Shown here piece after piece: positions 3,665 through 4,760 of a DNA stretch of 64,000 nt. Below the pieces are notes generated by a model that was not told the DNA's origin, made no database searches, and saw only the letters and a list, made by a program, of their open reading frames with translations. Made by a program: the position numbers and the translations under genes. Position 1 is the first letter of the stretch. Each line of letters opens with the position of its first letter. Source of the stretch: Bacillota bacterium (lineage in GTDB: Bacteria > Bacillota > Sulfobacillia > Sulfobacillales > Sulfobacillaceae); NCBI GenBank assembly GCA_021820485.1, contig JAKADO010000004.1, positions 1 to 64,000 of the forward strand, given 5' to 3'.

Positions 3665-3834
3665 GCTTACTGCCTCCTTGTCTAAGTGCTATGTAATGCA
3701 CGGCAAAGCGGATGGTTTCGAACTACAACTAAATTGTACTCCTCTTCCACTAAAACGGATCCCCCCAATTTAACCTAAGGGCCCCTCCAGGATCCAAACC
3801 GCCCTTAGCGGGTGTGTCTCGGTCCCGCAATTGC

Positions 3835-3840
3835 TATAAT
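3835..3840 (+). promoter_or_regulatory. -10 element TATAAT upstream of NUDIX gene
   Basis: TATAAT, 34 nt before the proposed TTG start; no convincing -35. Confidence 0.45.
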
Positions 3841-3873
3841 AGCGGTAACAGAGTGTTCGTGGAGGCTACCGAT

Positions 3874-4410
3874 TTGTTAAGAAACCGAATTCGCAAGGTG
3901 CCTGTGACCGTTCGAGGCACCCACTATATTCATGAGTATTTAGTGTTGCCTGATGTGTGTGCTGTTATTGCCGAGGTTCCCGACGGGATTGTTCTGGTTG
4001 AGCAGTTTCGCCCCGCACTAGGTCGGCGCATTCTCGAGTTGCCGGCTGGCCGATTGCGCCGTGGCGAGGAACCGGTCCAGGGTGCGCGTCGCGAGTTGGC
4101 GGAGGAGACCGGATATCAGGCTGGCGACCTGCGGTTGATTTCCCGTTTCTATCCATCGGTGGGCTTGTCACGCCACAAGGTTCACCTTTACTACACGGTA
4201 AATCCTGCTCCGGGTGAAACACATTGGGATGCCACCGAGGAAATCGACGTCAAGATTATCCCGGTCGCCGAAGTTCCCAACCTCCTCATCGAGGGACGCG
4301 CAGCGGACGCCAAGACGCATTTGGGACTGGTCTACTTTTTGAATGCTCGAGGCTGGATTATGCAGCGTGGACGCTGGCGGCCAACTGAATTGGCCCAACC
4401 CAAAAACTGA
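3874..4410 (+). CDS. NUDIX hydrolase (ADP-ribose pyrophosphatase-like)
   Basis: NUDIX box GRLRRGEEPVQGARRELAEETGY. Start refined from 3814 to TTG at 3874 with GGAGG at 3861-3865, because the 3814 start lies upstream of a TATAAT. Confidence 0.88.
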   Translation: MLRNRIRKVPVTVRGTHYIHEYLVLPDVCAVIAEVPDGIVLVEQFRPALGRRILELPAGRLRRGEEPVQGARRELAEETGYQAGDLRLISRFYPSVGLSRHKVHLYYTVNPAPGETHWDATEEIDVKIIPVAEVPNLLIEGRAADAKTHLGLVYFLNARGWIMQRGRWRPTELAQPKN

Positions 4411-4508
4411 CGAAACGGGGCAGGTTTTGGCAAACAAATTCTCCTATACACGACGGAAAAATCGGCTACAATGGCGGTAACAAGATCTGAGGGGAGGCGG
4501 CCCAGACG

Positions 4509-4760
4509 ATTTGTGAACACTGCGGCGCCAAAGTGGTGGACGGTGGACCCGTTTGTTCTGCATGCGGGATGTCGCGCAACACGGACCCGCCTCGCCCTCG
4601 TGACCCGGGCAAGGTTGTCCCCTTTCGACCACGCAAGCGTGCTGCCGAAAAAAGTTCTGCGCCGAAACTGAAAAAGCGGCGACCGCCATCCGCCACGTTC
4701 TGGTGGATTATTGCCATCGTCGCCATCTGCCTGGTTGTCCCGTACGTCATGCACTTGTGA
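4509..4760 (+). CDS. Small zinc-ribbon, single-TM protein with apparent ATT start
   Basis: Continuous frame from ATT at 4509 reads (M)CEHCGAKVVDGGPVCSACGM...PPSATFWWIIAIVAICLVVPYVMHL. First CxxC lies upstream of the GTG (4533) used in the ORF track. Confidence 0.6.
   Translation: MCEHCGAKVVDGGPVCSACGMSRNTDPPRPRDPGKVVPFRPRKRAAEKSSAPKLKKRRPPSATFWWIIAIVAICLVVPYVMHL

Follow-up and report, generated by a model that had tools for sequence, protein, structure and literature searches.

A small gene in a member of the Sulfobacillaceae encodes a tail-anchored zinc-ribbon protein that appears to be translated without any of the customary start codons. Initiation very likely takes place somewhere within two adjacent codons, ACG followed by AUU or AUC (AUY), behind a strong and well-placed Shine–Dalgarno (SD) sequence. 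Homology and spacing lead us to favor the first of the two, the ACG at positions 4506–4508 of the window (the whole stretch of 64,000 nucleotides that was analyzed), as the initiation codon, with a probability of about 0.55; it would be a weak start that keeps the protein at a low level. A sequence-only reading of the same DNA had already argued that a non-canonical start was needed, and we agree: no ATG, GTG or TTG start fits the conserved protein. Where we differ is on the codon, as described below.

A zinc-ribbon gene behind a Nudix hydrolase gene

The coding region runs on the forward strand from 4506 to 4760, ends with a TGA at 4758–4760, and specifies a protein of 84 amino acids. What the sequence-only reading had described at 4491–4760 as a zinc-ribbon membrane protein is borne out, with CEHC, CSAC and a C-terminal hydrophobic helix all present. 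The ribbon, CEHC-x10-CSAC, occupies 4512–4565. Pfam's curated cut-offs are not reached (Zn_Ribbon_1, 19.3 bits against 25, E 0.00096; DZR_2, 18.6 bits against 27), although the CxxC-x10-CxxC pattern itself is there. A basic linker contains the motif KVVPFRPR (4611–4634), which the ortholog alignment marks as conserved, and a membrane helix predicted from the sequence (FWWIIAIVAICLVVPYV, 4698–4748) finishes three residues before the stop. Such a tail anchor suggests that a cytoplasmic zinc ribbon is held at the membrane. The Pfam families Zn_Ribbon_1 and DZR and the N terminus of TcaA have the same general arrangement, a four-cysteine ribbon at the N terminus with a membrane helix after it. The protein described here differs from them in its sub-cut-off scores, its tail anchor, its length of 84 residues, its own KVVPFRPR motif and its position behind a Nudix gene.

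That Nudix hydrolase gene (forward strand, listed frame 3814–4410, the true start probably being a TTG further inside) lies directly upstream of the zinc-ribbon gene in nearly all genomes of the family, and the arrangement extends into the order. Within the family the Nudix protein is 82–95% conserved and the zinc-ribbon protein 31–60%. In the window's own genus and its sister genus the germination protease gene gpr follows the zinc-ribbon gene on the opposite strand. The constant place behind the Nudix gene suggests a function shared by the two. A search of 34 genomes of the family (E up to 1e-4) returned orthologs in 32 of them, one copy each, and a few genomes in other families of the order carry one as well. 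With so many orthologs, the same Nudix neighbor and a dN/dS well below 1, the frame at 4491–4760 is, on these comparisons, a real gene, beyond chance.

The start column and its surroundings

After an in-frame TGA at 4488–4490 the sequence reads GGG GAG GCG GCC CAG ACG ATT TGT GAA CAC TGC. A start further upstream in this frame is ruled out by that TGA, which in the ACG genomes stands shortly before the SD. As the sequence-only reading noted, the interval from the TGA to the first cysteine codon (4512) lacks an ATG, GTG or TTG in frame; the first such codon is the GTG at 4533, rightly rejected then as a start, since it would delete CEHC, a CxxC kept in all orthologs. The SD itself, GGGGAGG at 4491–4497, is 8 nt from the ACG and 11 nt from the ATT at 4509–4511, the latter spacing being the one originally given. 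The TACAAT reported as a −10 element is likewise present at 4467–4472, and a TATACA 16 nt upstream of it makes a weak partner of the sigma-70 type; this TATACA/TANAAT pair (4445–4472 in the window, forward strand) is seen again in most members of the two genera. All nine genomes of these genera, and G011 as well, have an ATG that overlaps the −10 element (TACAATGG / TAAAATGG, window 4467–4475). We considered translational coupling to the short open reading frame that begins at the ATG inside TACAATGG and rejected it, the frame and its length varying between genomes. A search for an RNA element gave no Rfam match, and the leader folded no better than shuffled sequences.

In the aligned orthologs one codon separates the start codon from that of the first cysteine, M-(I/T/Y/V)-C-x-x-C-G, and they do not begin with the MCxxC that an AUU start had led the sequence-only reading to expect. 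At this column the 32 family orthologs have ATG (22), ACG (6), GTG (2) or TTG (2), and nothing else. The ACG genomes comprise four members of one genus (the window's G000, with G002, G005 and G006) and two of its sister genus (G013 and G021). The remaining three gene-bearing members of the window's genus have GTG (G001 and G003) or ATG (G007), so that ACG is found in six of the nine genomes of the two genera and ATG or GTG in the other three. Both TTG genomes have an in-frame ATG seven codons upstream, as do some of the ATG members, which makes their true start less certain. Whether they have ACG, GTG or ATG, members of both genera have 8 nt between GGAGG (GGGGG in G002 and G006) and the start column. 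In G002 and G006 (L005, L007) the first cysteine codon is preceded by CTG-ACG-ATC, three near-cognate start codons in a row.

Could the gene simply be broken? A pseudogene or an assembly error, with a lost start and a frame that is no longer translated, would account for six genomes having no canonical start, but we regard it as highly improbable. In the two closest ACG pairs, the only ones used because dS is too near saturation in more distant pairs, dN/dS is about 0.10–0.15 (dN 0.049 and dS 0.51 for G002/G006; dN 0.11 and dS 0.73 for G013/G021). The zinc-ribbon genes of the ACG genomes have no stops or frame changes, and their promoter and SD are conserved. Purifying selection on the protein in these genomes argues that it is translated and useful. 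The six assemblies also agree on ACG, which excludes the sequencing error that the sequence-only reading had named as a possible refutation.

ACG, the codon after it and the history of the column

Three things favor initiation at ACG: the column is homologous, the spacing is 8 nt and the codon has persisted. The ribosome would start at 4506–4508 and make fM-I-C-E-H-C-G. Isoleucine (ATC, ATT, ATA) is residue 2 in the GTG and ATG members of the window's genus too, which argues that the ATT is ordinary coding sequence. An ancestral ATG would have become ACG no later than about the time the two genera separated, and the ACG would then have been kept. The weak codon–anticodon pair, disfavored by initiation factor IF3, would hold the protein at a low level.

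The serious competitor, which we consider a distinctly weaker prospect than ACG, is that the ATG decayed to ACG and initiation moved one codon down to AUU or AUC, as in infC, to give fM-C-E-H-C-G. This is what survives of the AUU start first proposed for the gene; the homologous start codon is the ACG, and the ATT corresponds to residue 2. The two products differ by one residue and the zinc knuckle is identical. An AUY codon does follow the ACG in all six genomes (AUU in four, AUC in two), and the infC genes of the family tell a similar story. In 14 of 14 family genomes examined (L034–L047) the infC start column has no NTG but AUC or AUU behind an SD. Together with what is established about infC, this makes it probable that the family's ribosomes begin at AUY in one gene or more. 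Biochemistry, too, favors AUU. In a reconstituted E. coli system, second-base non-Watson–Crick pairs (the ANG/CNU set, including ACG with CAU), examined with N-acetyl-proline as the initiator, mostly failed to yield full-length product, while AUU with CAU met with partial tolerance and gave some fMet product (PMC10158994). Against these points, the AUY codon is 11 nt from GGAGG, compared with about 8–9 nt for the infC AUC in most genomes; an isoleucine codon is found in same-genus GTG and ATG members, where no start function is needed to explain it; and a start at AUY would leave nothing to keep the preceding codon ACG in six genomes.

A strong SD might instead place the 30S subunit so that ACG and AUU, and in G002 and G006 also CTG, are each used at low rates, producing proteoforms one residue apart. 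The near-cognate codons do adjoin within reach of the SD, as the CTG-ACG-ATC run illustrates, but the CTG is present in two genomes only, and we think such shared use improbable. More improbable than any of these is that C-to-U editing of the mRNA turns ACG into AUG. In its favor, ACG is the codon from which this change makes AUG, and most orthologs have ATG at the column; against it, no bacterial case of C-to-U mRNA editing is known to us. The model for it is the plant chloroplast, where an ACG start is commonly edited to AUG (PMC9845219); the chloroplast cases resemble ours in that conserved genes have ACG where the start codon belongs, and differ in the editing.

How firmly is the ACG, as our favored start, held in place? 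Between the six ACG genomes, four-fold sites in three neighboring genes (citrate synthase, Nudix and gpr) are near saturation: pairwise identity is 34–42% (59% for G002/G006), and 16 of 328 such sites are identical in all six. Not one of 37 conserved threonine codons is ACG throughout, and the start-column ACG is the same in all six. The leader directly upstream is likewise conserved, with four of eight spacer columns invariant in the six, and this makes the invariance of the ACG weaker evidence than the four-fold sites imply. The case for constraint on the codon is suggestive, not conclusive. A tree of seven concatenated neighboring or housekeeping proteins has the ACG genomes as its earliest branches, at four points, with the GTG and ATG members together in a single clade nested among them (support 95/94); its root is weakly placed (79/89). 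At least three start-codon changes are required on the species tree, a minimum that a single gain of ACG with later return to ATG and GTG would fit. Because ACG may have had a single origin, the six genomes cannot be counted as six independent tests.

Other genes, precedents and what an ACG start would mean

An altered initiator tRNA was another candidate that we set aside, the initiator tRNA sequences of the window's genome looking ordinary. GGGCTCATAACCC occurs at two places in that genome, one of which ARAGORN identifies as tRNA-Met with anticodon CAT. We likewise rejected genus-wide use of ACG starts, on a comparison of G000 (607 kb sampled) with G013 (400 kb sampled). Nine of its 104 reciprocal-best gene pairs were flagged as conserved before the first NTG, the zinc-ribbon gene being the only convincing one. 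Shadow frames and leader alignments accounted for the others, together with a selenoprotein that its TGA had split in two. No second ACG start was found among the 104 pairs, in a test that passes over genes with a chance upstream NTG, such as infC of the window's genome. When SD-backed NTG starts of one of these genomes were mapped onto the other, most results were slips of the alignment by a few codons, and no counts were taken from them. The split gene (L116:10638–10865, on contig C30 of G000) probably specifies a selenoprotein: its Rdx-family, SelW-like product is interrupted by an in-frame TGA in ...EIEYCTA-U-GF..., with conservation in G013 (L125), and the part after the TGA matches Pfam Rdx (E 2.8e-12).

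Among known systems, infC, which encodes IF3 and starts at AUU or AUC, comes closest. There too a non-canonical start has long been kept behind a strong SD, with AUC or AUU standing in the infC start column of this same family. The mismatch in infC falls on the third base, while the homologous codon of the zinc-ribbon gene, ACG, has it on the second. In addition, infC is autoregulated by its own product. The sequence-only reading had suggested infC-like autoregulation here, for which we see no support: the start column is ACG and the product is a zinc-ribbon membrane protein, not an initiation factor. Outside infC, the GTC start of Streptomyces sigR has been tested experimentally and keeps its protein scarce through IF3 (PMC5472188). 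It differs from our case in being GTC rather than ACG and in belonging to a sigma factor. The zinc-ribbon gene has the sequence features of IF3-discriminated starts of the infC and sigR kind, namely no compatible canonical start and an ACG conserved among orthologs. By analogy, weak, IF3-limited expression is the likely effect of such a start. A fuller claim, that ACG is a genuine initiation codon across the two genera, retained by selection because it limits the amount of a membrane protein and links that amount to IF3 activity, with the start codon itself as the regulator, is one we put forward tentatively and would not yet bet on.

Non-canonical starts are thus already known, but a conserved bacterial ACG start is not described in the literature searched, of which our coverage was partial. 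Should AUU be the codon used, the gene would be an infC-like AUU case outside infC. To our knowledge, gene finders in practice accept only ATG, GTG and TTG, so genes with such starts are cut short or lost. The rule derived from E. coli is that the first two bases of a start codon must pair. A natural, conserved mismatch at the middle base would, if true, contradict that rule and provide, ready-made in nature, a way to test how initiation is set by IF3 and a strong SD. For these bacteria, an ACG start would be a very unusual way to begin, and probably to hold down, the production of a protein.
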